Shown here: positions 19,121 through 38,659 of the stretch, piece by piece
Numbering within the stretch: position 1 is the stretch's first letter
Layout: each line of letters begins with the position of its first letter
Origin: Spartobacteria bacterium
GTDB lineage: Bacteria; Verrucomicrobiota; Verrucomicrobiia; Chthoniobacterales; Chthoniobacteraceae
NCBI GenBank assembly: GCA_021324825.1
Contig: JAJPII010000023.1
Coordinates: 1 to 64,000 of the forward strand
Reading direction: 5' to 3'
DNA: 64,000 nt
Program-made: the position numbers and the translations under genes
The notes under the pieces: generated by a model
Database searches by the model: none
The model's input: only the letters and a program-made list of their open reading frames with translations
What the model was told of the DNA's origin: nothing

Positions 19121-22100
19121 CTATTCTCCGCCCGCGGTGGCCTGGGCGCTGAGGAGTTCGCCCCCGTATTTGACCGAGCCGAGTTGCAAGGGATTCTCCA
19201 GGCCGAGGCCGTTGAGCAGCGGAGCGCCGCCGCCGCCTTCGCCGCCCGTTGTGTTCAGGACAAACTCGCCGGGATTGAGCGCGGGCGAGAAGTAGGCGCG
19301 GAGATTGAAGCCCCCGTTGTCGCCGAGGCTGTAGAAGGCGCTTTGTTCAACGATTTGCACGCTGTCGGGAATGTCGCGCATGGAGGTGCTCGGGAAGGTC
19401 GCCATCCAGTTTCCGCCGGAATCGACGACGACCGTTTGCGATCCGATGTCGTTGCCCTGTGAGTCGTAGAGGGAGATGACGAGCGTCGAGCCGGGATCGG
19501 CCTCGCCGCTGTAGATCGGCGCGAGGGGCAGGATTGCGGGCCGGAAGACATCCGGCGAACCGGCGTAGTAGACGACCGCGGGCCGGGGTTGGTTGCCGAC
19601 GGAGAAATTGTTGAATGCGTCGAAGCCAAAGGTGAGCGCGGGCGAAAGGATGGCGCCGACGCTGGATTTGTTGTTGGAAGGCGTCGGGTCTTCGAATGCG
19701 TTCACGTCGTCGGTTATGGCGGCGGCGTTTGTCACAAGCTCGCGGCCCGGCACGGCCGTTACGACAACGGTGACGGTGAAGCGGAAGGTGTCTCCCGGCT
19801 TCAGCGTGCCGGCCTGCCAGACGACCTTGTTGCCGTCCGCCCGTCCGCCGTTGCTGGCCGAGACAAACCGCAGGCCGGGGGGGAGGGTGTCCGTGACAAT
19901 GACCCCGGTCGAGACCTGGTCGCCCGCGTTGCCGCCGGTGAGCGTGTAAGTGATTTCCTTCCCGGTGACGGCGCCCGCGAGATTCTCCGTCTTTAGTATA
20001 TAGAGATCGGGTGCGGCATGGAGCGCGTCCACGTCCGTCGCGGTGTTGTTCTTGGGAGTCAGGTCGGGGCCGGAACTTCCGTTATCCCTGGCGGTGACGG
20101 TGTTCGTTATCGTCTCGGCGTGGGCGGGCGCGGGGTTGATGACGCGCGCGGTCACGGTGAGCGTGACGGTGTCGCCCGTGGGCATCTCGCCGAGAAGCCA
20201 CGTGATCGCGCCGGTCGCGGCATTATAGACCCCGCCGTGCGACGCCGAGAGGAACTCGAGTTCGCCCTTGGGAAATCCGTCGGTTACGATGACGCCGTCG
20301 GCTTCCTGAAGGGAGGCGTTGTTAACCGTCATCGTGTACTTCACGACCTGGCCCGGAACGACGCTCGTGACGTGGTCCGTCTTCGTCACGACCAGATCGC
20401 TCGGTATCCTCTCGCCAAACAAGTACCCGTTCACGCCGGCGCCGCCTCCGAGGCCGATGCCGGAGATGACATCCTGCACGGTGGGATTGCCCCCCGCGGA
20501 GCCGACCGTGTCGCGGCCCTCGCCGAAGCCGGCGGGCTGCGTTTCGGTGAGAGTGTATGTGCCCGCGAGGAGTCCGGTGAACGTGAAGCTGCCGTCCGCC
20601 GCGCTGACGGTGGTCTGCGGTGCGATGGCGGCGCCGCTCGAATCCTGGCCGGAAAGGGTGATGGTGACTCCCGCGATGGGCTGCTCCCCGGCCTCGATAA
20701 GACCGTCGTTATTCCGGTCGTGATACACCGTGCCGGAGATGGAGCCGGTTATCTCGGCGAAATTGGCCGTGTTCATTCCGCCGGCCGGAACGGTCAGGGG
20801 AACGCTGGCGGGCGAATTCGGGCCGTAGGCGGCGGGCTGCGTCTCGGCGACCGTATAATCGCCGGCCGCAAGTCCGGTAAAAGCGTATTTGCCGTCCGCC
20901 GCGCTGGTTGTCGTCCCGACGATCACGCCGTGGCTGTCGATGAGTTCCACCGGCACGGCGCCGATTCCCGGCTCGCCGGCTTCCAAGGCGCCGTCCTTGT
21001 TCAGGTCGGAGAACACCGTCCCGGTCACCGAGCCGCCGAGCTCGCCGAAGTTGTATCCGGCGGCATCCTGCGCCGCCGTTATTTGAACGCCGGATGTCAC
21101 ATCGGGAACCGTGGCGTCGCCGCCAGCGGTCCCGGCGCGGTCCTGGCCGTCGCCGTACGCCGCGGGCTGCGTCTCAGTGATGGTGTATGCGCCTCCGCTC
21201 AGCAAGCCCGTGAATTGGTAATGACCGTTTGCGTCGGTCGTCGCGGTGACGGGCGTTATCGTTCCGTTCGCGTCCGTGCCGGTGAGGGTGACGACAACGC
21301 CCGCGAGGCCCGGTTCGCCCGCGTCTTGCACTCCGTCGTTGTTGTCATCGCGATAGACATTCCCCGCGAGGCTGCCCGTCGTTTCTCCGAAATTGTTGTT
21401 CGCCGCCGCCTGGCCCGCGGCGACCGTTATATTGCTTAGCGTCGCCGGGGTTGACGTTCCGTAACCCGTTGGCGCCGGAGCCTGCGTGACTTGATAGACC
21501 GCGCCCGGCGCGACGTTCGTGAAGATATACGTTCCATCCGCGTCGGCCGTCGTCGTGGCGAGGACCGCGCCGCCGCCGTCGAGCAATTCGATGACGCCGC
21601 CTCCAACGCCCGCTTCGCCCGGGTCGAGCGCGCCGTTCTTGTTCGCATCGAGGAAGACGACGCCGGAAACCGCGCCTGTGCCCGGTGTGGTGCTCAGGCG
21701 CTGCCCGAAATTATAGTCCGTCGCGTCCACGCCGCCGCCGAGTCCGATGGTGGTGAAGGTGTTTGCGGCCGTGTTCTGGCCGCCGGCGCTCCCGACGTTA
21801 TCGGAAGCGGGCGTAAACCCGGCGGGTTGGGACGCCGTCACGGTATAGTCGCCCGCGACAAGGCCGGCGAAAATATATGTTCCGTTCGCCCCGGTGGTCG
21901 TAATGAGGCTGACGGGGTTGTTGTTGGAATCCGTCCCCGTAAGCGAAACGGTTACCCCGGCGAGATTGCCGTCGCCCGCGTTGAAGCTGCCGCTGTTATC
22001 GGCGTCCACATACACGCGGCCCGCGAGCGATCCCGTCGTCGCGCCGAAATTCACATTGCTCGCGCCCGTCGCGGGGAGCGCGACGGTGAGGCTGTCCGGC

Positions 22101-25100
22101 GTGCTCGCCCCGTAGCCGTTCGGCTGTGTTTCCAGCACGGTGTAGCTGCCGGCCGCGAGCCCTCCGAAGCTGTAGCCGCCGTCCGCCGCGGTTGTTGTCG
22201 TTGCGAGGACGGTGTTGCTCGCGTCGAGCAACTGGAGCGTGACGCCGCCCAAGCCCGATTCGCCCGCGTCGAGCGCTCCGTTCTTGTTGGCGTCAACGAA
22301 CACGCGGCCGGTCAGCGAGGCGGGAAGCTCGCCGAAATTGTAGCCCGTCGCGTCGATGCCGCCGCCCAAACCGATATTCGAAGTCACATCGGTTCCAAGG
22401 GCGCCGCCCGACGTTCCGAGCGCATCCTTGCCATTGGCGTATTGCGCCGGCTGCGTCTCGGTTATCGTATAGACGCCGGTGAGCAGTTGATTGAAAACGT
22501 AACTTCCGTCCGCTTGCGTGACGGCGGTGCGGTTGACGCTCGCGCCGTTCACATCCGTGCCGGTGAGCGTGACGGTGACGCCCGCGATGGGAGTCTCCCC
22601 GGCTTCCTTCGCGCCGTTGTTGTTTGCGTCCACATAGGCGAACCCCGAAAGGCTGCCGTAGGTTTCTCCGAAATTCTCGTTCGCCGCGACTCCGTTCGCC
22701 GCGACGGAGACAGGCGTCAGCACATTTGGCGTGCTGGAGCCGTACGCGGGCGGCTGCGTCTCGTCTATCGTATAATCCCCGGGCTTCAGATTGCCGAAAC
22801 TGTAGGCGCCGTTTGGGTCGGTCGCTGTCGTGGCCAGCACGTTGCCAAGGCTGTCCCGCAGGGTGAGTGTGACGCCGCCGATGCCTGTCTCGCCGGTGTT
22901 GAACGCGGCGTTTTTATTGGCGTCGAGGAAGACCGTGCCCGCTATCGCTCCCTTGCCCGGCGGCACGCTGACCGTTTCGCCGAAATCGTATTGGTTCGCG
23001 TTTTGCGCCGCGCCGAGCGCTATCCCGCCGATCGTGTCGCCCGAGACCGCGCCGCCAGCCGTGCCCGCGCTGTTTGTCGCGGATATATAATTGGCCGGCT
23101 GCGTTTCGCTGATGTTGTAATCGCCCGCGAGCAGATTGGTGAAAACGAAGGCGCCATTCGCGTCCGTCGACGCCGTGCGCGTGACGGAAGCGCCGTTCGC
23201 GTCCGTGCCGGTGAGCGTGAGGAGGACGCCGCTGATCCCGCTGTCGCCCGCGTCGAGCGAGCCGCTGTGGTCCGCGTCGAAATAAACCGCGCCCGCGAGC
23301 GAACCGGTGGTCGCGCCGAAGTTGACGCCCGCAACGCCGGTGGTTGGAACGGTTACCGGCATATCCGCGGGCGTGCTGGAGCCGTAGCCGTTGGGCTGCG
23401 TCTCGACGACGCTGTAATCGCCCGTGGTAAGGCTGCCGAAACTGTAGGAACCGTCGGCGGCAGTCGTGGTGGTCGCGAGGACTTGATTCAGGCTGTTGAG
23501 CAATTGGATCTGAACGCCCGCCAGCCGCCCCGTCTCCCCTCCGTCGAGAACGCCGTTGGCATTGGAGTCGAGGAAGACGACGCCGGAGATCGACGCGCTT
23601 TTCTCGCCGAAAGTGTACCCCGAGCCGTTGGCGCCGGGCGTGACGCCGATGTTGGAGAGCACGTCGTCGCCCAGCGTGCCGCCGAGGGTTCCGAGCGCAT
23701 CGAGTCCGTCGCCGTAACCGGCGGGCTGCGTTTCGGTGAGCGTGTATTCGCCCGGACGCAAATCGGCGAAGCTGAAATTGCCTTGGGCGTCGGTGAGCGT
23801 GTTGCGATTCACCGCGGCGCCGTGGTCATCCGTGCCGGTCAGCGTGATGGTCGTGTTCGGGATGCCGGCCTCGCCCGCGTTGCGGACGCCGTTGTTATTC
23901 GCGTCCACGTAGACCGAGCCGGAAAGCGTGGCGGGAACGAGTTCCGCGAAATCATTCGCGGCGGAGGCGGCGCCCTGCGGCGTCACTATTCCGGAAATGT
24001 TGTCATTCGGGGCCGCGCCGCCGCTCACTCCGCCGAGACTGCCGGGCGTTGCCTTGCCGTCCAGGTAAGTGGATGGAACATAGGCGCTCTCATCCTCCGT
24101 GACCGTGTAACCCGCTCCATTGCTGGGCCGAAGCCCCGTGAAAGCGTAGTTTCCGTTCGCGTCGGTGGCTGCGGAGAGCGTCACGGTCCGGCCGTAGACG
24201 TCCGTGCCGGTGAGCGTTATCGGCACATTCGCGAGACCGGTTTCCCCGACGTTGCGGATGCCGTTGTTATCGGTGTCGAGATAAGCCGAGCCGGAAATGG
24301 ACGACGGGAGCGTCTCGCCGAAATTGTAGCCAGGCCCCGTGGCATTCGACTGCGCCGGGATGGCGACGGCGGTGATGGTATTGCTGTTCAGCGCGTCCGA
24401 GGTCGCCCCGCCGAAAGTCGTTCCCGCCGTTTCCAGCGCGTCGACATAACCCGCCGGCTGCGTCTCGGTTATGAGGTATGTGCCGGGCGGCAAGCTGCCG
24501 AAGGAATAGCTCCCGTCCGCCGCGGTCGTCGTCGTCAGATCGACGGGCAGGCCGCTTGCGCTCGAACCCGTCAGCCGCAAGGTTACGCCGCCGATTCCCG
24601 TGTCGCCCGCGTCGAACTGGCCGTTGGAGTTGTTGTCGTCGTAGACCGAGCCGGTGATGGCGTTCGTGTTGACGACCACGACGGAAGCCGCGGGCCCGGC
24701 TGAATAATCGCGCTCGTTTCCGTTGACGGCGGCAAGGCTGTCCCAATTGATCTGCGCGCTGTTGTCCTGGGTCGTGCCGACATTCGCCAGCGTATTGTTG
24801 ACCGTGGCGCCGTACGTGACGGTGATCGTCCCGCCCACCGCGAGTTGCGTGAGTTGCAGATCGAGGAGGTTCGGCGTGGAAGCGTTGTTTTCCACCAGGG
24901 GCGACGAGCCGATGGCGACGCCGTTTATTTGGATGCTCGACGCATCGAGCGTCAGGCCCGAAGGAATGAGGTCCTTTACAAGAATATTGAAGCCGTCCGC
25001 GGCGTCCGGCCCAACGGGATTCGTGATCGTGACGGTGTAATGCAGCGTCTGGTTGATGTCCGGAGTCGGGTCGTCCACCGATTTGGCGACCTGCAGATTC

Positions 25101-28100
25101 GGCTCGACGATGGTTGCCACCGGATCGTTCGCCGGAACGGTGCTGACGGCAGCCGGGCCGCTCGTGCCGTTCGTATAGGAAAGACTCGCGTCGTTGCGCA
25201 ACGTCACGCCGCCGACGTTCCCGGGGACGTCCGCCGCGCGCGCTGTGAGGAAAATCGTAAACGAATTATTGGACGTGTCGTTGTCGGCGGCGTTGGTGAG
25301 CGCGCCGAGATTCCAAGTGACGTTGGAGCCGGTGATCGTCGGCGAGGGGAGGGTAAAGGGCGTGACTCCCGAACCGGTGAAGTCCGCCGCGCTCGACACG
25401 TACTCAAGCCCCGCCGGGAGAGCGTCGACGACGCTCGTGTTCGGCGTGATTCCTTCCGGCAGTGTGATCGTGAGCGCGTAGGTCGCCGTCTCGCCGATTG
25501 CGAGATTGCCGCCGGTCGTCGCGGCCTCGCTCGTCGAAAACAACGTTTTTACTATCGACGGCGTGCCAATCGTCCTGGCGGCCGCGGATGCGCCCACCGC
25601 GTAGTTGTTGAGGATAGCGCCATTCGCGGGAGGCGTGTTGTCAACGGGCGAAGCGACATCGCCGCCCGTCCGTTCGCCCGTGACTGAACCCGCCGCGCCC
25701 GGAGCGTCGGCGGCGTTCGGAAGACTGGTGTAGGTCGCGGTCGCGGAGTTGGGGATAGTCGATCCCGCCGTCGCGCCGGCCAGAACGGTGGCGTTCACCG
25801 TTATCGTCGCGCTATCGCCCACGTCGAGCCGGCTGAGCGTCAGATCGACGCCCGCGCCGGTGGAATTGTTCGTCACCCCCGCGTAACCGGGGCCGGATAC
25901 GGACACATTCGCCAGCGTCAAATCGGCCGGATCCAAAATATCCCGCACCCGCACGTTAAAAGCGTCCGCCGCGTCCGCGCCGAATACGGTCGCCGCGTTG
26001 TTAGTGACCGTTATCTGGTAGGTGATGGTGTCGCCCGCGTCGACAGGGTTCGCCGGCGTCGTCACGGATTTTGTGATGGTCAAGTTCGGCTCCGTCACCA
26101 CGGCCTGCGGGCCCGCGCCTTGCGTCAGCGTCTTGCCGGGCGTGTCGGCGGCGGTCGTCGCTCCGTCGTTGTTGGTGTCAAACGTGACCTGCGCGCCGTT
26201 GCCGAGCGTGGCGCCCGCCTGGTTGCTCGCTTGGTTGACGACCAGGGCGTTGAATTCCAGCACCACGAATTGCTCGTCCGATTCGCCGCCGGAGTTCTGC
26301 ACCGTGCCGAGATGGAAATAGACGTTTCCGCCGCTGGCATACGTTTGGGCGGTGTTCAGGATGTCGCTGGAGATATTCGCGGCGGGCAGCAGCGCCGCGG
26401 GCGTGATCGTGTTGACCGTCGTCTCGTTGCCGGAAACGTAGGCCGCGCCGGTCGTGGAGAGGCTCGTCGAAGTGATGGCGCCCGCGTTCGTCGAAACGAA
26501 GGCGTAGGACGCCGTTCCGTCGTTCAAATAAAGGAGGCCGTTGGGAAGCAGGTCGCTCACCACGAGATCGCGGAACGTGCTCTGCGGAATTTGCGCGACG
26601 ATCCGGTAGCGCACCGTCTCGCCGACGGCCACGTCGTTTCCCGCGGTGAACGCCTCGGAACTCGACACGATGCTTTTGGTCAGTTGAGGAGAAAAGATTT
26701 CGCCGAAGTCGTATTCCGTCCCTGTGTTATTGCCGGGCGAGACGTTGGCGATGGCGATGCCGGTTATCGTGTCGCCGCTCACCGCGCCGGGGTTGTTCGG
26801 CGCGCTCAGGCCGCCGCCCACCGCATTGATGCCGCTCGTATACCCTTTGGGCTGCGTTTCGCTTATCGCGTACGTGCCGGGGCGGAGGTTGGTGAAGCTG
26901 TACGCGCCGCTTGCGTCGGTCGGGTCGGCAAGGCTGACGGCGCGCCCGAGGTCGTCCGTGCCCGTGAGGGTTACGGCCACTCCCTCGATGCCGCTCTCGC
27001 CCGCCTGGCGCACGCCATTGTTGTTGAGGTCCTGGTAGACGAAGCCCGAGAGACTGGCCGGGTTCAGTTCACCGAAATTGTAGCCCGTTGCCGCGGCGCC
27101 TTCCGCCAGCGGGATCGCGGATATCTGGTCATTGACCGCGTTGCCGCCGCCGGAGGTTCCGGCCGTGTCCTTTCCGTCGAGGAACGCCGCGGGCTGCGTG
27201 ACTTCCGTGACGGCATACGTGCCGGGGCGCAGGCCAACCCCGCCGTTGTTGAAAGTGTAATTGCCGCTCGCGTCCGAGACGCCGTTGAGCGTGACGCTCT
27301 GGCCGAAGACATCCGTGCCGGTAAGGCGCACGGGCACGCCGGCGATGCCCGCTTCGCCGCCCTGCCGTATGCCGTCGTCGTTTACGTCCGAATAAACGGA
27401 GCCGGAAACGCTGGAGGGAGTGAGTTCGCCGAAATTGTAACCCGCGCCGGTTAGGTTGCTGTGCGAGGCGACCGTGAGGCCGCTGATGGTGTCGCTGCCG
27501 AGCGCGTCGGACTTCGTTCCGCCGAAGTTGGAGCCGACCGTCTCGACGCCGTCGGTGTAGGCGGAGGGCTGCGTTTCGGTGATGGTGTAAACGCCGGCGG
27601 GCAGGCCGTTGAAGGAATACGCGCCCCCCGCGCCGCTGGTCGTCGTTTGCGAGAAGGCGTTGCCGTTCAGGTCGGTTCCCGCCAACGTCAGGCTGACTCC
27701 CGCTATGCCCGCGTCTCCGGCATCGAATACTCCGTTCGCGTTCGCATCCTTGTAAACCGTCCCCGTGACGGCGCCGGCGCTGACGGTTACGCGCTGCGTG
27801 TCCTGCCCGGGATCGTCCGGCGAAGGCGTCGGCGCTTCCGTATAGCCGGGCGTCGCGCCAAAGTCGCGTTCGGGGGTTCCGGGGGGGACGCCGGTCAGCA
27901 CGCTGTTGTTATCATTGTTGGTCGGCTGGCTGTCCCAATAAATGCGGGCGTTGTTGTCGAGATTCATCCCCGCCAGGCTTTGCGTTTGCGCGACCGTGGC
28001 GTTGTAGGCGACGGTGACGGTGTTGCCAAGCGCGAGACTCGTGAGGCGGAAGTCGATCAACCCGGAGGTCGAGTTATTGCTCCCCGCCGACACCAGCGGC

Positions 28101-31100
28101 GAGGATGCAATCGCCACGCCGTTCACCAGGATGCTCGACGTATCAAGCGTCATGCCCGCAGGCATCGCGTCGCGCACGATGACGTCGTAAGCCATGCCCG
28201 TGCTGTTTGCGGCGTGCGAGATCGCCAGGGTGTAATGCAAGGTCTCGCCGATGTCCGGCGTGATGTCGTTCACGCCCTTGGCGATCTGGAGGCGCGGTTC
28301 GACGACGGTGACATCCACGGGCGGCGTGGTCGAGGAGGGAAGCCCTTCCACCGGGACGTTCAGCGTCGCGGTGTTGGCTAGAACAGTCTGAGGACTGGTT
28401 CCCACGTTGCCCGCGTCATTCATTACCCGCGCTGTGACCAGGATGAGAAAACTGTTGTTCGACGTGTCATTGTCGCCCGTCACGCTTGTCGAGCCGAAGG
28501 AGAACGTGACCGCCGCGCCGTCGCTCGCGCCGCCCGTCACGGTGGGCGCGGGAAGCGCGCCGTTGAAGTCCTCCGCGAGGAGTCCGTTGCTTGCCGCGGC
28601 GGTCGTGACGACGCTGCTGCCGATGTATTGCATGCCCGCGGGGAGCGAATCGACGACGCTCAGATTCGGCGTCGTCCCCTCGGGCAGGGTGACTTTCAGC
28701 GCATAGGTCGCGGTCTCGCCGATCTCGACATTCGAGCCGCCGGTGTTCGCGTCGCTCGTCGTGAAAAGCGACTTCGAGAGCGTGGCGACCGGCACGGTGA
28801 CGGGCGCGTCGTCGCCAGCGGCGTATGCGCGGTCGTGGTCGGTCGTGACATCGGGCGAGGGATCGTAGGCCGGCGCGGTCTTGACCCCGGGCAGCCCCGT
28901 GTAGGCGATGGAAGCGGTGCTGTCTATCGTCTCGTTCGGCGTCACCGCGCTCGTCAATGTGGAGGTGAAGGCGACCGTGACGGTCTCGCCCAGCGCGAGA
29001 TTGAAAGACTGGCCGGGCTTGGTTTCCAGCACCCCACCGGAAATGTCGAAGAGCCCGCTGATGTCGCCCAGCACGGAATCGGTGACGGTGAACGAGGAAG
29101 GCGTGGCGATCTGCGAGGGAAGCGGATCGGAGAATGTCGTGTTGAACGCTTCCGCGAGGCTGTTGGACTGGTGGCTGATGACGGCTGTGTAATTGACCGC
29201 ATCTCCCGCGTCGCCGCTCGACCCGCCGTTGATCGTGATCGTCTTGTTTACTCCCAGGTGCGGTTCGATGAGAGTCGTCGTATTGCCGCTGGGATCGACC
29301 AGCGCGGCTGCGCTCGATCCGCCGTTCACCGAATAATTCACCGCGTTTGTTCCCGTGGTCTGCGCCCCTTGCAAACCGGTGTTTCCGGGCGCGTCCAGGA
29401 CAACCGCCTGGTAGGTGAAATAGAACGTGTTGTTGTTGATGTTGTTGTCGCCCGCGGTGGTCATGGTCCCGAAGTTGAACTGCACGCCCGCGCCGTTCGT
29501 AAACGGCGCGCCGGTGACGGTCGGCGCGGCGAGGCCCGAGCCGTTGAAGGCCGCTCCGCCCGTTCCCACCTGCCCGGCGTTCAATGCGGGATCGGGGCTG
29601 GTCGGGTGTTCGGGGAAAAGCTGGACGCTTCCCGGTACGTACGCGAGACCCGCGGGGATCGCATCCACCACGGAAAAATTCGGCGTGACGCCTTCGGGCA
29701 GGGAGACGGTGACCCGGTACGTGACGATCTCGCCCGGAGCGACGTCGTGCAGGCCGGTGTTGAAATTATCCGGCGTACTGGACTCGCTCGTCGCGAAGAT
29801 GGAGCTTGAAACGACCGGCGCCGCGACGTTGGTGATGACGGTCGAGGAGGCCGCGCCGTAGTTGTTCAACTGCGCGGGATCGGGAGAACCGAGCGTGGTG
29901 TTGGGGACGCCGGAGCCGGTCCGCTCGTCCGCGTTCGTCCCGGGCGTGCTCGTCCAGAAAGTGCGGGCGGTGTTGTTGATCTGCTGGCCGGACTGGACGG
30001 TGTTGGCAAGCGTGCCGGAAACATTCAACGTGACGCTGCCGCCCAGCGGGATATTGAGCGTCGAGGCGGGATTCAACTGAAGCACATTGTGGCCGCCCAC
30101 GTTGACGATCTGGAAATCGCCCGCCGTTGGCGCGGTGAACGTTCCGCCGAAGCCCGTCGCAGAGACGCCCGTGATGTTGGGCGAAGTCACCGCGTCGTCG
30201 AGCGTGTCAACGAGCGTCACGTCGTAAGCGTCCGCGTTTCCGGCGACGTTGGGATTGGAGAAGGTTATCGTGTAACCGACCGGATCGCCCGCGTCGCCGG
30301 TGGGCGTGCTCACGGTCTTCAGGATTGTAAGCGTCGGCTCGATGACCGTGACAGTGTGGTCGTTCGGCGTCGCGTCCGCGGCGGTGTCGCCCGCGCCGGT
30401 GTTTGGATTCGTGAAGGCGATTTGCGCGACGTTGTTGAGCGTCGTGCCGGCCTGGTTGGCCATCACGTTGTCAACAATCGCGCGCACGCGGATGAGGAAG
30501 GAATTGTTGTTCGTGACGTTGTCCGCGGTCACCGCCACGTTTCCAAATCCGAGGCTTCCGCCAACGCCGTCCGTCCCGAGCGCGCCGCCCAGGGTCGTCA
30601 GCGTCGGGGTTCCCAGCGCGCCCGGATCGCTGAAATCCGCGCCGAGCTGGCCGTTGCCGGCCGCGGCGGTCGTTATGATCTGGTATCCCGCGCCGCCATT
30701 GTAGGTCGTATCGAGCCGCATGCCGGCTGGGACGAGGTCCTTCACCGTCAGGTTCTGCGTCACGCCTTCGGGCAGGGTCACCAGGATGTCGTAGAGGACG
30801 CTTTCCCCCACCACGACATCGCCGAGCGGATTCGTCCCCGCCTGCGGCACGCTGAAATCCGAAGCCAGCGCCGAGCCGCCCGCGAAGCGCTTGTCCACCA
30901 CGGGGCGCGCGTCCGTCACGGTCGCCGTTGATGTCACGGCGTAGTTGTTAAGAACGGCGGCGTCCGTTCCCGGACCGCCCGCGCCGGTGCGTTCGGTGGA
31001 AGAGGCGTTGTAGCTCGTGATCTGGCCCGGAGCGCCGGAAAGGCTCGTCCACTGGAGGCGCGCGGTGTCGCTCAGGATTTCCTCCGCGGGAATGGCGGTC

Positions 31101-34100
31101 GAGAGCGTGCCTTGCACGATGATGGTGACCGTCGTCCCTCCCGCGATGTCAATTCCCGAGGCGCTCGCCGTTTGCAACGACCCGCCCGAGATCGCGAAGT
31201 CCGCCGTCGTGAAACCGCCGCCCGTCACCGACTGGATCGCCGGGCCGGTGAGGAAGGAAGGGAGCGCATCCGAAAGCGTCGTATTGAAAGCGGTGGCGCC
31301 GTTGGCCGCGTTCGTGATGACGACCCGGTAGAATACGGAATCTCCGCCATCGACGCCGGTAAGGCTTGTGACGAAAGGCCCGCCGGCGCTGGTCCCCGCG
31401 CGGTTGGCGAGGGTGAGCGCGGGTTCGACAACGGTCACATTTCCCGGGGCCGCGCTTTGCGAGACGGTGTAAGGCGTCGCGCCGCCGGCCGGGACGTTGG
31501 TGTATTGCGCGGAGAGCGACGCGGTGTTGCCGAGCAGCACGCCGGATTGGTTGCCGGTCGCGTTTTTCGAGTCGCTGTTTTCATTCAACACCACGGCGTC
31601 GTAAACGATGGTGATCGTCTGCCCCGCGCCGCCCGGGTCGCTGTTTGTAAGCGTGCCGAAATTGAACGCGAGGTTGCGGCCCGTGCCGCTGACCGTGACA
31701 TTCGCCGGCGCCGTCCCCGTGCCGACGGTGTTCGTGGAGTTCAGGCCGGAGGAGAGCGTCACGCTCTGCACGTCCACGAAGGCCAGGCCCGGGTCCATCG
31801 TATCGTTGAGCACGGCGTTGGGCGTCGTCCCGTCCGGCACGGCGAGCGTGAGCGTGTAAGTGACCAGTTCGCCGATGACCGCCTGCGTGTTCGAATTGCC
31901 GGTCGTGTTGAATTGCGTGCCCGTGAGCGCCTTCGTCAGCGTGGGCCGCGGCAGCGTCACGCTGGCCGAAGCCGTTTCCGGGGTGGGAACGAAATTCGGC
32001 GCGCCCGGCGAATCCGCGTAGTTGGTGAGCGAGGCGGTGTTCGTGATCGTCGAACCGGCCTGCGCCACGCCCGGCGCAAGCGTGAGGTCGTACGTCGCCA
32101 CGACGGTGTTGGAGCCGTTGGTGATCGCCGTGCCCGTGTCCGCGTTGAAGCCGCGGCTGAGCGCGCCGGTCTCCGTGTCGCCGCCGATGTTTCCGCTGCT
32201 GTAGTTGTCCGTGAGCGTGATGCTGAGCGCGCCCCCGGCGCTGAGGGTCGCCGTATAATCCACGCCGTTCACGAGCAGAGAGCCGTCGCCCCGGCGCAGG
32301 GTCAGGTTCATCGCCGCCACGCCGGCCGGAATCGTATAGCCTGCCGGAACGGCGTCGCCGAATTGCACGTTGAACGCGTCGTTGCGGCCGACGTTTTGCA
32401 CCACCACCGCGTAACGAACGGCGTCGCCGCCTTCGATGCCCGCGGCTCCCGTCGGATCGCTTGCGCCGATTGCGGCGGCCTCCGTGGCGTCGTCGATGGT
32501 TCCGGTGAAGTTCGAGGCCGCGGTCGGCGCGGTGAACGCGATGCCGCCAAGGGTAAGCCCGGTGTTATTGTAACCGACCACCCCTTTATAGATAGCCACG
32601 GACGGCTCCTGGAGTTGGAACTGCACGATGGCATCCGAAGTGATCTTCGCGGTGGGAAGCTGCGTGTTGTTTTCCTCGCCCTGCACCTGGTTCGTGAGGA
32701 AAAGGCCGTCCGCGAACGGTTGCGTGCCCACCGTCACCGTGAAGAGCAGGTCCACTGTCTTTGCGGTTCCCGCCGGGTTGTCGGTGGTGCCATAGTTGAA
32801 ATCGAGCGAGTTGGCGGACGCGTCGGTGCTGATGGTCGGCGGCGAGCCGTGCACCGCGCGCAAAGTTTCGTTCGGCCCAAATTGGGCGTGGCCCGCCAAA
32901 GGAGCGGCCGCGCTTAACACGTCGTCGAAGGTTGTCACCTCCGTCGCGCTGAAAACGGGCAGCGGCAGATAGTCGGTCAGGTCCAGGTTTTCCACGGAGC
33001 CGCTGGGCAGGAAGTAGTCGAGCCGGTACGTGACGGTGTCGCCCGGCTTCAACAAGTATTGCCCGTTCGACCCGATGAACGGCGCGAGATTCGTGCTGCC
33101 GTTGATCGCGTAAATCGTCTTGGACACCGACGAATTCACGATGGTGACCGACGCGCCCGAAGTGTCGGAAGCCGTCTGCCCGGTCGGCGTGGTCGCATTG
33201 TTCGCCTGCACCACGCCGCCGCTCGCGGTCACGCTGCTGTTGAGCAGGTCCCGAGGGTCGAGTTGCGCGTCGCCGCTGGGGTAGTTGTCGGAAAAGTCAG
33301 TCTGGATGACCGTGCGGAATTTCACCGTGACGGTCGTCGGGCCGAACGGGAGCGGCGGATTATTCGGCAGCGGGCCCGCGCCCGTGCCGCCGGCGGGGAT
33401 GCCGCCCCCCAGGAGAATCGGGGACTGCCCGTTCGCCGCCAGTTGTCCCGAGACGTTGAAGCTGATATCCGTCGTGCCGTCCGTTCCGTCGTTTGGATTG
33501 CCGTCGCCCGGAGTTGAGTAGTGAGGGGTGACGGTGTAGTCGGCCGGCTGGAAAACCTGCGTTGTAAATGTCTGGCCGTGTTCCGTCCAGGTGATCGTCG
33601 GGACGAAAGTCGGGTCGATCCGCTGCCCGTCGGAGATGATGTCGTCAACGATCAGATTCTGCAGGGCGAAGTAATCCGACACCTGCGTCTGCACGGTGTA
33701 TTCCAGCGTATCGCCGGGCGTGGGGCCCGCGGCTCCCGTGTCGATCACGTCCGCCACGGTTTCCTGCGTCGCGATGGATTTGACGGCGAGGGCGTGGGTC
33801 GCCGGCCCGGCGGTGGCGGTCACGTTCTGCGGGTCGCCGGTATCGATGGGATTCCATTGGCCGGAAGCCGTGGCGGAATCGGCGGCCGTGTTCGGCGCGC
33901 CGCTGTTCGCGTTCACGATCACGGCGCTGCTCGCATCGACGCGCGGTATATAGTAGCTGAAGATCAGCGATGCGTCCGGGGTGGCTGTGCCCGCGCCAGT
34001 CACGCCGCTCGTGAGGGTCTCGGTCAAAGTCCCTCCGGGCGTCGTCGTGCTCGGGGCGATTGTCGTTGTAAAAGCCCCCGTCGCCGCGCCATGCACCAGC

Positions 34101-34897
34101 ACCTGGGTTGCGTTGACGAACTGCATGTCGCTCGGCAACAGGTCGCTCAGTTGCAGATTCGCCACCGTCTGGCCCGGCGCGATGCTCACGTCGATCTCCT
34201 CCTGCCGGACGTAATTCGGGCCGGTGGCCGTTTCATTCTCCGGCCCCAGGTAAGTATCGGTGACGGTCATCAGCGCCGGCGTGACGTTCGTATTTTGGTA
34301 CGCGCCGACGATTGAGGGATCGGTCGTCGGATTATCCAGCGCGTCGTTTCCGAACTGGAAGCCTCCGCGCGCGCTGATGCCCAGCGACTTGTTCAACTCC
34401 GCGAGATTGCTGACAGTGAGGTCGAGATTGATGGTCGCCGCGGGCTGCGTGGGCGTGAAGCTGCCGAAGGGGAGTTGCAACACCAGCAGCGTGTCGCCCA
34501 CGCCATAACCCGCGGGCGCATAAACGGTGAGGGGATTGCCCGAACTGTCGTCCGCGTAAGGATGGATCGCATACGGCCCGAGCGGATGCGCGGCGTCGGC
34601 GGCTTGAAAAGTCAGCTTCGTCACCGTCACAGCCTGGCCCAGGTAGGTCGCGGTGTCCGAGCCGACAACGAAATCGACGCCGCCCCCCGTGCCGGTCACG
34701 CCGGTCTTGTGATCGAGCACCAGATCGACATAAGGGCCGAACCCGGCATTGGTTCCCGAGGCGTTGTCAAACGTGACGGTCACGGGAATCTTGTTGCCGA
34801 TCAACGGCTTCGCCGGGGCGCTGACGGTTACGTTGGGCGAAGCGCTGCAGAGGATGCGGTCTTCGAACGTTTCGAGCAGGAGAGGTTTTCGTGACAC
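19121..34897 (-). CDS. Giant multi-domain surface/adhesin-like protein (about 5,258 aa)
   Basis: One uninterrupted frame of 15.8 kb. From a GTG at 34897 it opens MSRKPLLLETFEDRILCSAS, which resembles the LEPR-XLL motif of giant exported proteins in planctomycetes and relatives. Longer starts (to 35326) would overlap the divergent TolC gene. Then come about 2,350 residues of DUF11/D2-like beta modules of two alternating kinds (LPEGVTPN...VVDxLPAGL and xxEPxLxxxK). Three SdrD-B-like modules (about 2373-2736), more DUF11-like modules, 13 SdrD-B modules (about 3411-4829), two DUF11 repeats and a 190-residue C-terminal domain follow. SdrD-B modules carry Ca-binding-type DANxNGxxDAGE loops and end YNFGE. 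No LPXTG, PEP-CTERM or autotransporter barrel is visible. The likely role is adhesion or a surface layer; export probably uses the adjacent TolC/SecA-like/HlyD genes. Confidence 0.9.
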   Translation of the reverse strand: MSRKPLLLETFEDRILCSASPNVTVSAPAKPLIGNKIPVTVTFDNASGTNAGFGPYVDLVLDHKTGVTGTGGGVDFVVGSDTATYLGQAVTVTKLTFQAADAAHPLGPYAIHPYADDSSGNPLTVYAPAGYGVGDTLLVLQLPFGSFTPTQPAATINLDLTVSNLAELNKSLGISARGGFQFGNDALDNPTTDPSIVGAYQNTNVTPALMTVTDTYLGPENETATGPNYVRQEEIDVSIAPGQTVANLQLSDLLPSDMQFVNATQVLVHGAATGAFTTTIAPSTTTPGGTLTETLTSGVTGAGTATPDASLIFSYYIPRVDASSAVIVNANSGAPNTAADSATASGQWNPIDTGDPQNVTATAGPATHALAVKSIATQETVADVIDTGAAGPTPGDTLEYTVQTQVSDYFALQNLIVDDIISDGQRIDPTFVPTITWTEHGQTFTTQVFQPADYTVTPHYSTPGDGNPNDGTDGTTDISFNVSGQLAANGQSPILLGGGIPAGGTGAGPLPNNPPLPFGPTTVTVKFRTVIQTDFSDNYPSGDAQLDPRDLLNSSVTASGGVVQANNATTPTGQTASDTSGASVTIVNSSVSKTIYAINGSTNLAPFIGSNGQYLLKPGDTVTYRLDYFLPSGSVENLDLTDYLPLPVFSATEVTTFDDVLSAAAPLAGHAQFGPNETLRAVHGSPPTISTDASANSLDFNYGTTDNPAGTAKTVDLLFTVTVGTQPFADGLFLTNQVQGEENNTQLPTAKITSDAIVQFQLQEPSVAIYKGVVGYNNTGLTLGGIAFTAPTAASNFTGTIDDATEAAAIGASDPTGAAGIEGGDAVRYAVVVQNVGRNDAFNVQFGDAVPAGYTIPAGVAAMNLTLRRGDGSLLVNGVDYTATLSAGGALSITLTDNYSSGNIGGDTETGALSRGFNADTGTAITNGSNTVVATYDLTLAPGVAQAGSTITNTASLTNYADSPGAPNFVPTPETASASVTLPRPTLTKALTGTQFNTTGNSNTQAVIGELVTYTLTLAVPDGTTPNAVLNDTMDPGLAFVDVQSVTLSSGLNSTNTVGTGTAPANVTVSGTGRNLAFNFGTLTNSDPGGAGQTITIVYDAVVLNENSDSKNATGNQSGVLLGNTASLSAQYTNVPAGGATPYTVSQSAAPGNVTVVEPALTLANRAGTSAGGPFVTSLTGVDGGDSVFYRVVITNAANGATAFNTTLSDALPSFLTGPAIQSVTGGGFTTADFAISGGSLQTASASGIDIAGGTTVTIIVQGTLSTAIPAEEILSDTARLQWTSLSGAPGQITSYNASSTERTGAGGPGTDAAVLNNYAVTSTATVTDARPVVDKRFAGGSALASDFSVPQAGTNPLGDVVVGESVLYDILVTLPEGVTQNLTVKDLVPAGMRLDTTYNGGAGYQIITTAAAGNGQLGADFSDPGALGTPTLTTLGGALGTDGVGGSLGFGNVAVTADNVTNNNSFLIRVRAIVDNVMANQAGTTLNNVAQIAFTNPNTGAGDTAADATPNDHTVTVIEPTLTILKTVSTPTGDAGDPVGYTITFSNPNVAGNADAYDVTLVDTLDDAVTSPNITGVSATGFGGTFTAPTAGDFQIVNVGGHNVLQLNPASTLNIPLGGSVTLNVSGTLANTVQSGQQINNTARTFWTSTPGTNADERTGSGVPNTTLGSPDPAQLNNYGAASSTVITNVAAPVVSSSIFATSESSTPDNFNTGLHDVAPGEIVTYRVTVSLPEGVTPNFSVVDAIPAGLAYVPGSVQLFPEHPTSPDPALNAGQVGTGGAAFNGSGLAAPTVTGAPFTNGAGVQFNFGTMTTAGDNNINNNTFYFTYQAVVLDAPGNTGLQGAQTTGTNAVNYSVNGGSSAAALVDPSGNTTTLIEPHLGVNKTITINGGSSGDAGDAVNYTAVISHQSNSLAEAFNTTFSDPLPSQIATPSSFTVTDSVLGDISGLFDISGGVLETKPGQSFNLALGETVTVAFTSTLTSAVTPNETIDSTASIAYTGLPGVKTAPAYDPSPDVTTDHDRAYAAGDDAPVTVPVATLSKSLFTTSDANTGGSNVEIGETATYALKVTLPEGTTPNLSVVDSLPAGMQYIGSSVVTTAAASNGLLAEDFNGALPAPTVTGGASDGAAVTFSFGSTSVTGDNDTSNNSFLILVTARVMNDAGNVGTSPQTVLANTATLNVPVEGLPSSTTPPVDVTVVEPRLQIAKGVNDITPDIGETLHYTLAISHAANSTGMAYDVIVRDAMPAGMTLDTSSILVNGVAIASSPLVSAGSNNSTSGLIDFRLTSLALGNTVTVAYNATVAQTQSLAGMNLDNNARIYWDSQPTNNDNNSVLTGVPPGTPERDFGATPGYTEAPTPSPDDPGQDTQRVTVSAGAVTGTVYKDANANGVFDAGDAGIAGVSLTLAGTDLNGNAFSQTTTSGAGGAYSFNGLPAGVYTITETQPSAYTDGVETVGSNFGGTKSDALGSDTISGLTVASHSNLTGAGYNFGELTPSSVSGSVYSDVNDDGIRQGGEAGIAGVPVRLTGTDVFGQSVTLNGVSDASGNYTFNNGGVGLRPGTYAVTEVTQPAAFLDGKDTAGTSGGGNAVNDQISAIPLAEGAAATGYNFGELNPASLSGFVYQDLNNNGVRQAGESGIEGVAVTLTGTDDLGRAVSLADPTDASGAYSFTNLRPGTYAISETQPKGYTSGINAVGGGLSAPNNPGAVSGDTITGIAIANVSPGNNTGTEYDFGEIFSPQLTKSIVSSSEAFTAGNDVAVGETVRYRIVAQIPQSTFRDLVVSDLLPNGLLYLNDGTASYAFVSTNAGAITSTSLSTTGAAYVSGNETTVNTITPAALLPAANISSDILNTAQTYASGGNVYFHLGTVQNSGGESDEQFVVLEFNALVVNQASNQAGATLGNGAQVTFDTNNDGATTAADTPGKTLTQGAGPQAVVTEPNLTITKSVTTPANPVDAGDTITYQITVTNNAATVFGADAADAFNVRVRDILDPADLTLANVSVSGPGYAGVTNNSTGAGVDLTLSRLDVGDSATITVNATVLAGATAGSTIPNSATATYTSLPNAADAPGAAGSVTGERTGGDVASPVDNTPPANGAILNNYAVGASAAARTIGTPSIVKTLFSTSEAATTGGNLAIGETATYALTITLPEGITPNTSVVDALPAGLEYVSSAADFTGSGVTPFTLPSPTITGSNVTWNLGALTNAADNDTSNNSFTIFLTARAADVPGNVGGVTLRNDASLSYTNGTSGPAAVSTVPANDPVATIVEPNLQVAKSVDDPTPDINQTLHYTVTITNPVGPDAADGFNILVKDLIPSGLTLDASSIQINGVAIGSSPLVENNASTPNLLDLQLTQLAVGGTITVTYGATVNNTLANVGTTQDNSAQINWDSLAAVNGNERDYSAGPAASVVVVNTNAITGSVYDDNNSNGQFDAGDTGIGGVTLRLTGSSASGLPVDLTTTTAADGSYSFGSLPPGTYLITETQPAGYVDALETAGTTFGGATSDALNSNTITAVAIPAQSNATGPGYNFGETLPSSISGSAYLDTDNNGIRNVGETGLANVPITLTGTDVYGRTVTLSAATDANGNYAFTGLRPSNGAGYTVTEDESAYVPSTYLDGKATPGSLGGVSGGAAPNDNISGIVTPQGAASAANDFAELVPATLSGSVYVDANNNGVRNAGEAGIPNTTITLTGTDDHGAAVNRNTLTDAQGNFSFADLRPGEYTLTETQPAGYGDGLDALGTLGGTLGDDVLSNIGVTPGANGSGYTFGEKSASISGVVFLDSNANGVLDGGETGRLAGVQIQLLNSLNQVLATTTTAADGSYSFGSLTTGDYSVVETQPNGYGSSTPADMPVTVPTTGVAGVNFGATTGSLAGAVYFDADHSGSLDAGDSGISGVLLTLTGTDANGASVTRTASTDANGAFVFTNLLAGDYNISETQPANYISATNSAGTAGGAVSGDTIGGIALGAAQNANQYDFGETVSVPPGKGAIAGTVFLDANKNAAFNTGETGIGGVTLTLRDSLGNVLATTATDPNGAYSFGNLKPGDYTIDETQPPAYGSSTPNVLTPVSVAANGVAANENFGETYGSLSGFAYVDANNNGAKEAGETPIAGVTVTLTGTDVNGASVNRTAVTQADGSYVFNQLLTGVYTITETQPAQYANGKDALGTSGGALGTDVTSNIGLGGGIDATGYNFGELPASLTGRVFVDANKNGALDAGESGLGGVTLQLLDASNTVLATTTTAADGGYSFGGLAAGSYTVLETQPNGYGASTPDSLTVALPATGASNVNFGATTGSLAGRVYVDADNSGSFNAGDGNLAGVTVSLTGTDSNNNPVSLITTTGANGTYIFAGLVAGDYTVTASQPAGFTPASDNVGSAGGQNTAANTFTTIGLGGGVDATDYNFGQRLSTTPGTGAVSGVVFLDANKNGALDPGEAGVGGGVIELLDGGGAVLATTTADADGTYIFTNVAPGAVYQVTQAPAPTGYGTSTPATLSNITVAAGQAAANNNFGETTGSLAGNVYRDDNNDGVQDAGEPGLAGVVVTLTGTDANGTITPVTATTDANGHYQFTGLLSGGAYTITETQPAAYGDGQDRAGTAGGDATVPDVTSGVQITAAQDAAGYNFGELGGSVTGTVFSDLNKDGALEAGEPGIGAVPVELIDSHGVIVGTTTSAADGKYAFTGLAAGDYTVAETQPAAYGPNSPASVPLTVPAGGMNTANFAEITGSISGTVYHDRNNDGLIEAGEQPIAGVTITLSGQDSSGAAIAPQTTVSAADGSFTFTGLLAGTYTLTETQPAGFGEGRDTVGSAGGNPTVQDVISGIGLGGGAGVNGYLFGERIPSDLVVTKTDHVTSVVPGQVVKYTMTVNNASLQEADGVIVTDGFPKGELEFLSASHGGVYNAATGAITWLLGEMPTGDTVTLTVTARVINPAPAHAETITNTVTARDNGSSGPDLTPKNNTATDVDALHAAPDLYILKTENLAGAVTGKEITYTLTGGNAGDQVSTGVIVTDTLPPGLRFVSASNGGRADGNKVVWQAGTLKPGDTFRFTVTVVVTAVPGRELVTNAAAITDDVNAFEDPTPSNNKSSVGAILSPALTFGFDAFNNFSVGNQPRPAVVYYAGSPDVFRPAILPLAPIYSGEADPGSTLVISLYDSQGNDIGSQTVVVDSGGNWMATFPSTSMRDIPDSVQIVEQSAFYSLGDNGGFNLRAYFSPALNPGEFVLNTTGGEGGGGAPLLNGLGLENPLQLGSVKYGGELLSAQATAGGE
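20412..23595 (-). repeat. Five tandem copies of a ~640-bp two-module unit in the giant gene
   Basis: Ten SdrD-B-like modules alternate strictly between a short form (LLD/LLN...VLATTTTAADG...NGYGxSTP) and a long form (LTGTDxxG...TETQPAxY...GG...YNFGE). Unit starts lie near 23595, 22949, 22320, 21675 and 21031, ending near 20412, so spacing is 619-646 bp (about 213 residues). The nine to ten long-form copies retain near-identical short stretches at the protein level, consistent with past unequal crossing-over of a two-module cassette. Confidence 0.8.
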
Positions 34898-35057
34898 GGC
34901 GGCGGGTGCTTTCGCAGGAATGCAAAAGTGGTGGAGCAAGAAGTTTGCCGGGGCGCTCGAAAATCGGGGGCGCTCCCTTGAGGAGGCGTTCTTTTGCTTG
35001 ATTCCGCACCTGTGTGGCACGGGATATGCAAAGGTCGCTGGGTGAGTCTTTTTTCCA

Positions 35058-36845
35058 ATGAACCACCCATTTCGCGCGGGCCTTTTCGCAATCGCCCTCT
35101 CCGCGGCGGCAGCCGACACCGTCGAAGAAATCCCCGCCGTCCGTAATCCGGCCGGCGTCGAGAAAGTCGTCATCCGCCAATTCGCTTCCGAGGCTTCCCT
35201 GGGCGTCCGCGCGCCGCGGACCTTCGGCAGGGAAAGCGAAGCGAGCATGCCCTCGGATTTCGCGCCGTGGTGGATCCGCGGGCAGAACTCCGCCATCGGC
35301 GACAACTCCGGCATGCCCATAACCATCGAAGACCTCTATATTCGGGCGCTGCGGAACTCGAAGCAGATCCGCGTCTTTGGCGATTTGCCGGTCATCCGCG
35401 AAACGGGCATCCAGGAAGCGAAGGGCGCTTTCGACACCAAGGCGTTCCTCAAGGGCAAGTTCGAACATGAAAACGACCCGGTCGGCAACGTCCTCACCAC
35501 GGGCGGACCGGATCGTTTCAAACAGGATGAATGGTCGTTCGAAGCCGGGCTGGACAAGAAATTCATCACCGGCGCGGAGGTCACGCTCTCCGAAAAAATG
35601 GGCCGCCTGGAGAACAACTCCATCTACTTTCTGCCGAATCCGCAATCGACCGCCACGCTCTCGCTTTCGATCGTGCAGCCTTTGTTGAAAGGAGCGGGCG
35701 TCAGTTACAACCGCTCGACGATGCGCATCGCGAAGCTCGACTCGCAAGTCGCGATGGACGAGTTCGTCCGCCAGAGCGAATCGCATCTCCTCGAGATCAC
35801 GCGCACGTACTGGGCGCTCTACGCCGCCCGCGTCACGTATCTGCAAAAGGCGATGCTCGTTGACGAGACCGGGCGTCTGACCGACGAACTCCGCGCCCGC
35901 CAGAAGGTCGACGCGCACCCCACGCAGCTTTATCGGGCCGAATCCGCGCTCGCTTCGCGCCGCTCGGACCTCGTCCGCGCCGAAGCCGCCGTCCGCAACG
36001 CGCAGGACCGCCTCAAGGCGCTGACCAGCGACGCCACGCTTCTGGTTCCGGCGGGCGTGGAACTCATCCCGCGCGACAGGCTGGTGCTGGCCCCGACGCC
36101 GGTGGACGCCGGGGAAGCGGCCGCCTACGCGCTTCAGAACAGGCCCGAGATAAACCAGGCCTTCTTCCAGCTTCGCGCCGCGACCATCCGCGAAAAAGTG
36201 GAGCGCAACGAACTCCTGCCGGAACTCAACATCGTGCTGGAAGGCTCCATCGGAGGCCTGACCGGCGGCGATTACGCGGACGCCTTCGGCAGGCAATACA
36301 CCACCGGCGGCCCCAGCGCCTCGGCGGGATTCGTCTTCAGCTATCCGCTGGAAAACAACATCGCGCGCGCCCGGCTCGAACGGCGGCGCCTCGAATTGCG
36401 GCAGCAGGTTGACCAGTTGAAAACAACCATCGACACCGTTTTCCTGGAGGTGAAGATCAGCGCCCGCGAAGTCGCCACGGCGTATCGCGAAACGCAGGCC
36501 AAATACGCCGCCGTCAAGGCTTACACCGCGGACGTCGAGTCCATCAAGGCGCGCCGTTCCCTGCAAACCGCCTCGCCTCCGCCGGGGTCCGAGGAAGCTT
36601 CCCTGACCGCGATCTATCTCGACAATCTCCTCGACTCGCAGGACCGCCGCGGCGAGGCGGAGGAGGAATTCATCCGCGCCGCCGCGGATTACCAGATAGC
36701 CATCGTCAATCTCCAGCGCGCGAAAGGAAAACTGCTCGCCTATTCCAACGTCACCGTCATGCGCGGCCGCGATGAAAACGGCCTGCCCCTCATTTATCTT
36801 CAGAAAAACGCGATAGACGGGAAATCGACCATCGAAGGCAAATAG
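35058..36845 (+). CDS. TolC-family outer-membrane protein of the giant-protein locus
   Basis: A 595-residue outer-membrane channel, longer than E. coli TolC. It has a short N-terminal signal (FRAGLFAIALSAAAA), an extra N-terminal region of about 100 residues, then OEP-like repeats with long coiled-coil helices and barrel segments (SIVQPLLKGAGVSYNRS; FSYPLENNIARARLERRRLE). It is divergent from the giant gene, with 160 bp of noncoding sequence between them that should hold both promoters. It is followed after 2 bp by the SecA-like gene and then an HlyD-like gene, a three-gene operon. The likely role is the outer-membrane exit duct for the giant protein. Confidence 0.85.
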   Translation: MNHPFRAGLFAIALSAAAADTVEEIPAVRNPAGVEKVVIRQFASEASLGVRAPRTFGRESEASMPSDFAPWWIRGQNSAIGDNSGMPITIEDLYIRALRNSKQIRVFGDLPVIRETGIQEAKGAFDTKAFLKGKFEHENDPVGNVLTTGGPDRFKQDEWSFEAGLDKKFITGAEVTLSEKMGRLENNSIYFLPNPQSTATLSLSIVQPLLKGAGVSYNRSTMRIAKLDSQVAMDEFVRQSESHLLEITRTYWALYAARVTYLQKAMLVDETGRLTDELRARQKVDAHPTQLYRAESALASRRSDLVRAEAAVRNAQDRLKALTSDATLLVPAGVELIPRDRLVLAPTPVDAGEAAAYALQNRPEINQAFFQLRAATIREKVERNELLPELNIVLEGSIGGLTGGDYADAFGRQYTTGGPSASAGFVFSYPLENNIARARLERRRLELRQQVDQLKTTIDTVFLEVKISAREVATAYRETQAKYAAVKAYTADVESIKARRSLQTASPPPGSEEASLTAIYLDNLLDSQDRRGEAEEEFIRAAADYQIAIVNLQRAKGKLLAYSNVTVMRGRDENGLPLIYLQKNAIDGKSTIEGK

Positions 36846-36847: not shown

Positions 36848-38659
36848 ATGTTCGATTCCCACGCCGCGGAGATGGAGAGAACAAAGCGGACATTCGCCGC
36901 GCTTTCATCCGATGCGTCCGCGCGCCTGCGCGAACGCGCCGTCAAGGGCGTTTCGATTCCCGACGCCGTCGCGCTCATGGCGGAGAGCATCCGGCGCATC
37001 CACGGCATCACGGCGTACGACGTGCAGCTCGCCGCCGGTCTGGCCCTCGCGAAAGGCCGGCTCGCGGAGATGGCCACGGGCGAAGGCAAGACGCTCGTGG
37101 CGCTGCTTCCCGCGTTCTGTTTCGCGCTGGAAGGGCGCGGCGCGCATATCGCCACCGTGAATCCATACCTCGCCCGGCGCGACTTTGAATTCGCGCGGCC
37201 CGCCTTCGACCTGCTTGGCCTCACCACGGGCCTGCTAGCGGTCGGCGGCGACAAGGCGGAGAAGCGCGCCGCGTACGCATGCGACGTCACTTACGGCGTC
37301 GGCACGGAATTCGGCTTTGACTATCTTCGCGACCAGCTTGCCATCCGCGCCGCCTCCGAGGGAGGCCGCGGCGCGCGCTTCCACGAGGTCCTGCTGGGCG
37401 GCGCGGCGCGGCGCCCGGACACCGTGCAGCGCGGCCACGCGTTCGCGGTCATCGACGAAGCCGACAGCGTCCTCATCGACGAAGCTTCCTCCCCGCTTAT
37501 CATCTCCGCGGGCGCCAAGTCGCGGAACGCCGCGCCGCACGTTTACCGGCTTGCGGATGGCATCGCCCTGCGGCTGGAAAGCGGCGAACATTTCACCCGC
37601 GACCCCGAAGCGAACCGCCTGGAACTCACGCCCGAAGGCGAGCGGCGCGCGCTCGATCTGCTGACGGATGAAGCGATCCCGCGCCTGCGCCGTCTCTGGC
37701 CGCACTATGTCGAAGCCGCCCTGCGCGCGCGGCATCAGCTTCGTCCCGACGTGCATTACGTCGTGCGCGAAGGCGAAGTCGTCATCGTCGATGAATTCAC
37801 GGGCCGCCTTTGCCCGGATCGAACATGGCGGGACGGCATCCACCAGGCTGTCGAGGCCGCCGCGGGCCTCGATGTCACGGAGGAGAACTGCTCGGAAGCC
37901 ACGATCACCCGGCCAGCCTATTTCAAGCTTTACCGCACCGTGTGCGGAATGACCGGCACCGCCCGTGAAGCCGCATCGGAACTGCGCGCCAGCTACGGCC
38001 TGCGCACCGTCACGATCCCTCTCAACCGCCCTTCCCGGCGCGCGATCCTGCCGGACCGCGTCTTCGCCACGCAGGCCGCGAAGCTGGCGGCGGTCGTCCG
38101 CGAAATTCACGCCCGGCGCGCGCGCAACCAGCCCGTCCTCATCGGCGCCCGAACCATCGAGAACAGCGAGGCGCTCGCCTGCAAGCTTGACGTTCCCTTC
38201 CGCATCCTCAACGCGAAACAAGACGCCGAGGAAGCCCGCGTCATCGCCCGGGCGGGGGATCCCGGAGCGGTCACCATCGCCACCAATATGGCCGGGCGCG
38301 GCGCGCACATCCCCGTGCCCGAAGCCGGCCTGCGCGCGGGCGGACTGCATGTCATCGGGCTGGAACGCCACGAAGCGGGCCGCATCGACCGCCAGCTTCT
38401 TGGCCGCGCCGCGCGGCAGGGCCAGCCCGGCAGCGGACAATTTTTTCTCTCCCTGGAAGACGACCTGCTCCGCCGCCACGCCCCAGAACTCGCGCAACGC
38501 CTTGCAAAAATTTCTCCCGACGCGGAAGGCGAACTTCCCGTCAGGATAGCCTCCCGCTTCCTGCGCACCCAGCGAAAAGTCGAGAACGCCGACCGCGACC
38601 GCCGCCGGCAACTCGCCAAATACGATGAATGGCTCGATGAACTCAAACAAACGCTTTAG
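36848..38659 (+). CDS. Short SecA-like ATPase (accessory SecA paralogue)
   Basis: A 603-residue SecA homologue versus about 850-900 for housekeeping SecA. It keeps the motor: Q-motif region AYDVQLAAGLAL, Walker A MATGEGKT (75-82), TYGVGTEFGFDYLRDQL, DEAD 203-206 in VIDEADSVLIDEA, a preprotein-crosslinking domain (about 225-365, HYVVREGEVVIVDEFTGR) and CGMTGTA. NBD2 reads TNMAGRGAHI (479-488), where SecA normally has TNMAGRGTDI, so the conserved Asp is His487. It ends at TQRKVENADRDRRRQLAKYD, just inside the helical scaffold domain. The wing domain, two-helix finger region and zinc tail are missing. Lying between a TolC and an HlyD gene, it probably powers a specialised export step rather than general Sec transport. 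Confidence 0.85.
   Translation: MFDSHAAEMERTKRTFAALSSDASARLRERAVKGVSIPDAVALMAESIRRIHGITAYDVQLAAGLALAKGRLAEMATGEGKTLVALLPAFCFALEGRGAHIATVNPYLARRDFEFARPAFDLLGLTTGLLAVGGDKAEKRAAYACDVTYGVGTEFGFDYLRDQLAIRAASEGGRGARFHEVLLGGAARRPDTVQRGHAFAVIDEADSVLIDEASSPLIISAGAKSRNAAPHVYRLADGIALRLESGEHFTRDPEANRLELTPEGERRALDLLTDEAIPRLRRLWPHYVEAALRARHQLRPDVHYVVREGEVVIVDEFTGRLCPDRTWRDGIHQAVEAAAGLDVTEENCSEATITRPAYFKLYRTVCGMTGTAREAASELRASYGLRTVTIPLNRPSRRAILPDRVFATQAAKLAAVVREIHARRARNQPVLIGARTIENSEALACKLDVPFRILNAKQDAEEARVIARAGDPGAVTIATNMAGRGAHIPVPEAGLRAGGLHVIGLERHEAGRIDRQLLGRAARQGQPGSGQFFLSLEDDLLRRHAPELAQRLAKISPDAEGELPVRIASRFLRTQRKVENADRDRRRQLAKYDEWLDELKQTL

Follow-up and report, generated by a model that had tools for sequence, protein, structure and literature searches.

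In staphylococcal Sdr proteins, two to five B repeats of 110–113 residues sit beside an A domain, SD repeats, and an LPXTG anchor; these repeats carry EF-hand loops and have been hypothesised to act as spacers (PMC3775735). More generally, domain repeats expand by several domains at once, and across families as a whole a two-domain unit is the most frequent (Bjorklund et al. 2006; PMC1553488). The giant adhesin of Mobiluncus mulieris packs 51 cross-linked Ig-like domains into 7,651 residues (PMC10619420). Our window, a 64,000-nucleotide stretch of DNA from a genome of 3.3 Mb (contig C27), holds a giant minus-strand gene for a 5,401-aa protein (Table 1). Like the B repeats of SdrC, SdrD, and SdrE, its repeated modules are SdrD_B modules with a predicted Cna-B-like beta-sandwich, a calcium-loop motif, and a tandem spacer arrangement (PMC3775735); unlike in the Sdr proteins, there are ten modules here, in two alternating lengths. 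Neither an LPXTG wall anchor nor SD repeats occur in the translated C-terminus of the giant protein, and its best NCBIfam match to the full-length SdrC/SdrD family reached 256 bits against a cut-off of 2500. Literature searches found no published description of the present locus or of alternating SdrD_B modules.

In Pfam and NCBIfam scans, the N-terminal half and the middle of the protein match isopeptide-forming (TIGR04226) and DUF11 domains, and two DUF11 stretches lie close to its C-terminus. The PF17210 (SdrD_B) profile detected exactly 16 modules above its curated cut-off of 29.7 bits, all in a single minus-strand frame and all scoring 42.7–72.7 bits. From the N-terminus, the order is A1 A2 A3, B1 B2 B3, and finally S1 L1 S2 L2 S3 L3 S4 L4 S5 L5; some 675 residues of other domains separate A3 from B1. 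Since the gene is encoded on the minus strand, a detail omitted from the original prediction for this DNA, the alternating array lies toward the protein C-terminus. Searched against the genome contigs, the C-terminal region had one weak relative (L021, labelled Verrucomicrobia; 31%). Near the other end, at about residue 155, is the sequence FEDRILCSAS, which resembles a LEPR-XLL motif, with no NCBIfam match at E 0.001. Given the position of this motif, the start of the gene was possibly set too far upstream, and translation may really begin at a site downstream of 35326.

Repetition in the giant gene extends beyond the alternating array. A segmental duplication (29206–27407 and 26035–24296, minus strand) covers iso_D2/DUF11 domains together with A1/B1; in self-BLAST of the protein in pieces, residues ~2041–2640 match 3098–3677 at an offset of ~1,066 aa and 32–47% identity. 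Separately, self-BLAST of the isopeptide/DUF11 half (about 32300–27800, minus strand) revealed a repeat period of ~355 residues with two domain types per unit, so that two-domain units are found in both halves of the protein.

Table 1. Features of the giant gene and its neighbours, in window coordinates.
Feature	Coordinates	Strand	Content or basis
Giant gene	19121..35326	-	iso_D2/DUF11 domains, SdrD_B modules, C-terminal DUF11 domains
Long-only triad A1 A2 A3	26684..27769	-	A1 27769-27410, A2 27409-27053, A3 27052-26684; orthologs in G027
B1 and B2, long	23927..24658	-	B1 24658-24299, B2 24298-23927; positional homologs of A1, A2
B3, long, probable first partner of alternation	23591..23926	-	closest to L2, 59% identity; offset-4 test
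Alternating array S1 L1 S2 L2 S3 L3 S4 L4 S5 L5	20408..23590	-	PF17210, boundaries, tree, identities
Block B3 S1 L1 S2, probable template	22652..23926	-	shared indels and linkers, offset-4 test
Block L2 S3 L3 S4, probable copy of B3 S1 L1 S2	21371..22651	-	shared indels and linkers, offset-4 test
Partial block L4 S5 L5, C-terminal array end	20408..21370	-	module identities, offset-4 test
OEP/TolC-like protein	35058-36845	+	divergent neighbour of giant gene
Second SecA-like ATPase, 603 aa	36848-38659	+	divergent neighbour of giant gene
HlyD-like protein	38625-39350	+	neighbour of giant gene
M50-peptidase/HlyD protein	39351-41489	-	neighbour of giant gene

The last ten modules alternate strictly between short (S) and long (L), five times over, as had been predicted. 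From S1 to L5 the module lengths are 97, 118, 98, 112, 96, 119, 100, 114, 96, and 111 aa, and the five S–L units span 645, 630, 645, 642, and 621 bp (mean ~212 aa), in agreement with the originally stated 619–646 bp and ~213 residues. In alignments, L modules differ from S modules by ~3 residues at mid-module and by ~17 residues beyond the ETQPxxY motif, and the two types differ in more than length: mean identities are 53% for S–S, 48% for L–L, and 37% for S–L comparisons. Among all 4,368 choices of five of the 16 modules, S1–S5 is the top set for within-set over between-set identity, and just 8 of the 4,368 placements of five S modules among 16 positions give strict alternation. A 54-module tree built without the S-gap columns groups all five S modules with one module from the related genome G024 in a single clade (100/99); the short forms therefore cluster, as anticipated, even when the columns that define their length are left out. 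The corresponding expectation for the long forms was not borne out by the tree, which did not recover a single clade of array L modules; such a clade was neither supported nor rejected by the AU test, and the same was true of a window-only S clade. The claim that both long-only sets fall outside the alternation fits A1–A3, B1, and B2, but not B3, which appears to be a partner in it.

Module identities suggest that some rounds of copying took in more than a pair. Modules two apart are on average 49.5% identical, those four apart 53.7%, and those six apart 49.2%, with a P of 0.006 for the four-module excess when S modules are permuted among S positions and L modules among L positions. The top values of their classes belong to S1–S3 (65%) and B3–L2 (59%), two single-residue gaps are common to S1, S3, and S5, and a longer linker is common to L1 and L3, a pattern consistent with the three blocks of Table 1. 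Copying one pair at a time predicts that neighbouring pairs should be most alike, which is not what the four-module peak shows; copying in later rounds probably proceeded four modules at a time. The original cassette, a short module plus the long one that follows it, with similar neighbours across copies, is not supported by these data: the similarity matrices of S and following L modules are not congruent (r -0.33 to -0.45), and identity is highest at four-module spacing. Matrices of the preceding L and S modules are weakly congruent (r 0.36 to 0.60, P 0.25 to 0.075). A long-then-short unit may fit slightly better than a short-then-long one, though weakly, and with five units the placement of B3 within the array, in long-then-short phase, is suggestive only. 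What survives of the argument for two-module cassette amplification over independent gain is the amplification of multi-module units (the S clade, S–S and L–L identities far above S–L, and the rarity of the S–L pair), without the short and following long module as the unit. Taken together, these sequence comparisons of the array are best read as the product of multi-module duplication.

In family-level searches, G019, G024, and G027 yielded related giant genes, and other genomes yielded portions of SdrD_B genes. The G027 gene contains tree-supported orthologs of A1, A2, A3, B1, and B2; it has additional long modules at the two sites but lacks any short one. Because G027 has both sets, the segmental duplication is older than the split from that lineage. 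In G024 there is exactly one short module, located between two long ones and ahead of the next domain, while the partial G019 gene, which ends at a contig end, contains long modules only, without a short-long pair. Across 213 genomes of the order, full-length matches to a profile of the pair above 290 bits came from the window (five, 298–318 bits) and G024 (one, 307 bits), and the next best match reached 126 bits; across 388 genomes of the phylum there was no other match above 130 bits, and no relative was found in viral contigs. Pair number varies between species, with five in the window, one in G024, and none in G027; among the genomes listed in the family search, none other belonged to the genus of the window. 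Two of the related assemblies warrant separate mention. The G027 gene (contig C126; L043 5552–16567, L114 4645–10269) is split between two open frames that overlap, one of 3,671 aa and the other of 1,874 aa, through a frameshift or an assembly error. In G029, near-identical 106-aa repeats (VTGHLYVDTNGNGTQD...) reach the ends of contigs C59 and C117 (L048, L053), so this assembly probably breaks inside a young repeat.

The array appears to be old. Skeleton modules of the window are 66–84% identical to their G027 orthologs (average 75%), whereas array copies are 43–65% identical to each other, much like the A–B paralogs (49–56%), and S2 shares more identity with the short module of G024 (63%) than with any of its sister copies. 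Although the A/B skeleton does have G027 orthologs, these values do not support the proposal that the array was added later. Assuming an even clock, the array may have started before the split from G027 and then been lost in that lineage; such dating assumes like rates in array and skeleton, and array modules may have evolved faster. A window-only S clade, which the AU test allows, would place the amplification after the split from G024. Copy divergence excludes a 'recent' origin, and recent tandem amplification was ruled out by this divergence, the lack of a Tandem Repeats Finder array, and a longest exact repeat of 23 nt anywhere in the giant gene.

Nor does the array look like an active repeat. 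Tandem Repeats Finder reported no array because the DNA copies are too diverged (46–64% identity), and the longest repeat blocks within it, of 146 and 166 nt, are only 71–73% identical. The giant gene lacks the long near-identical direct repeats that characterise recombinationally variable tandem repeats. Unequal recombination, invoked in the original prediction, is consequently poorly supported as an ongoing process, given exact repeats of at most 23 nt here versus 2,550 nt in Spirosoma (see below). The array looks like an old module-block duplication, not an actively expanding repeat. With an uninterrupted reading frame and no exact repeat longer than 23 nt, the array is unlikely to be an assembly artefact.

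Old in-frame duplication of multi-module units, with a later four-module step and a present role as a spacer segment, probably provides the best explanation of the array as a whole. An ancestral gene, probably one shared with the G024 gene, would have come to have a short SdrD_B module set between long ones, and the alternation would then have lengthened as long-short pairs, starting with B3 as the initial partner, were duplicated in tandem and in frame. In a later round, the four-module block B3 S1 L1 S2 would have been copied to L2 S3 L3 S4. We infer this order of events, and its phase, for duplications that would have occurred long ago, about or before the split from the G027 lineage, with copies since reduced to roughly half identity and the array now serving as a spacer in a giant stalk protein that is probably exported. 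Amplification of a short-then-long pair singly, after the split from relatives, as originally envisaged, seems unlikely: strict S–L alternation, the one S–L pair in G024, and a window-only S clade allowed by the AU test would all be consistent with it, but S modules and the L modules that follow them do not have a congruent history, identity peaks at four modules rather than two, and array copies are more diverged than window–G027 orthologs.

Had single short modules been gained independently between long modules already in place, five insertions of one S type at exactly alternating sites (8/4,368 placements) would have been needed, and this scenario is at odds with a single clade of S modules and with linkers and indels that repeat with the module period; even though G024 has a lone short module among long ones and the array L modules form no supported clade, we regard such insertion as improbable. 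The high divergence of the array copies, alongside a skeleton little diverged from G027, could also reflect import of an already alternating, diverged array as a block, by recombination from another SdrD_B protein. However, the array does not differ in GC or GC3 from the remainder of the giant gene, leaving no compositional signal of import, and no multi-pair donor was found in the 213 genomes of the order, the 388 genomes of the phylum, or viral contigs, making this origin highly improbable. The alternation might have been kept by selection despite deep divergence, with two lengths setting a fixed stalk geometry (e.g., regular joint spacing) and copy number tuned in whole-block steps from species to species. 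We consider this quite unlikely; if strict alternation is indeed selected, it would offer a handle on module-length control of stalk shape.

The predicted fold is consistent with a role in extending the protein. A high-confidence structure model of S2–L2 contains two beta-sandwich domains (mean pLDDT 94.8) and has SdrD A2-A3-B1-B2 as its best solved match, and a calcium-loop-like sequence motif is present at the start of all 16 modules. By prediction, every module forms a self-contained beta-sandwich that carries a calcium-loop motif, in which case the array would add ~1,060 residues of stalk. Given the SdrD-like predicted fold, the calcium-loop motif, and the spacer hypothesis for Sdr B repeats, a spacer role is by analogy the likeliest. 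The giant protein is probably an exported stalk protein, for which we infer a surface location. A full-length SecA-type protein is encoded separately on contig C19, and the second SecA-like gene beside the giant gene recurs at 64–72% identity in G018, G019, G024, G025, G027, G031, and G032. In G027 and G025, SecA-like and OEP genes adjoin the related SdrD_B gene; this recurrence suggests that the locus possibly provides a dedicated export route for giant proteins.

Strict alternation of two SdrD_B module types likewise occurs in a giant gene of Spirosoma oryzicola (WP_232564011.1), in an array that is independent and young: copies of each type are 96–100% identical except for the first module, exact repeats reach up to 2,550 nt, and both modules are 118–119 aa long. 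This array has the look of one prone to unequal exchange, and the 33-kb gene that carries it (NZ_CP089545.1, L103 4232–37285) is a good model for active array change. Old and active arrays can be told apart by copy divergence relative to orthologs together with the longest exact repeat, and the regular part of a repeat need not be its younger part, which corrects an inference made for the present gene.

The Mobiluncus mulieris adhesin is also very large and built of many beta-sandwich repeats, though of different domain families and in a different organism (PMC10619420). Bjorklund et al. surveyed mostly eukaryotic proteins (PMC1553488), whereas the present array consists of bacterial SdrD_B modules with a probable later four-module step. 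Its similarity peak at a spacing of more than one module, here four, is the trait expected of multi-domain duplication. As a bacterial example the locus is a clear one: how a giant stalk protein grew can be read from it at several nested levels. Multi-module duplication is a common growth route of such stalk proteins, and this array is a well-resolved example of ordinary multi-domain duplication, not a new kind.
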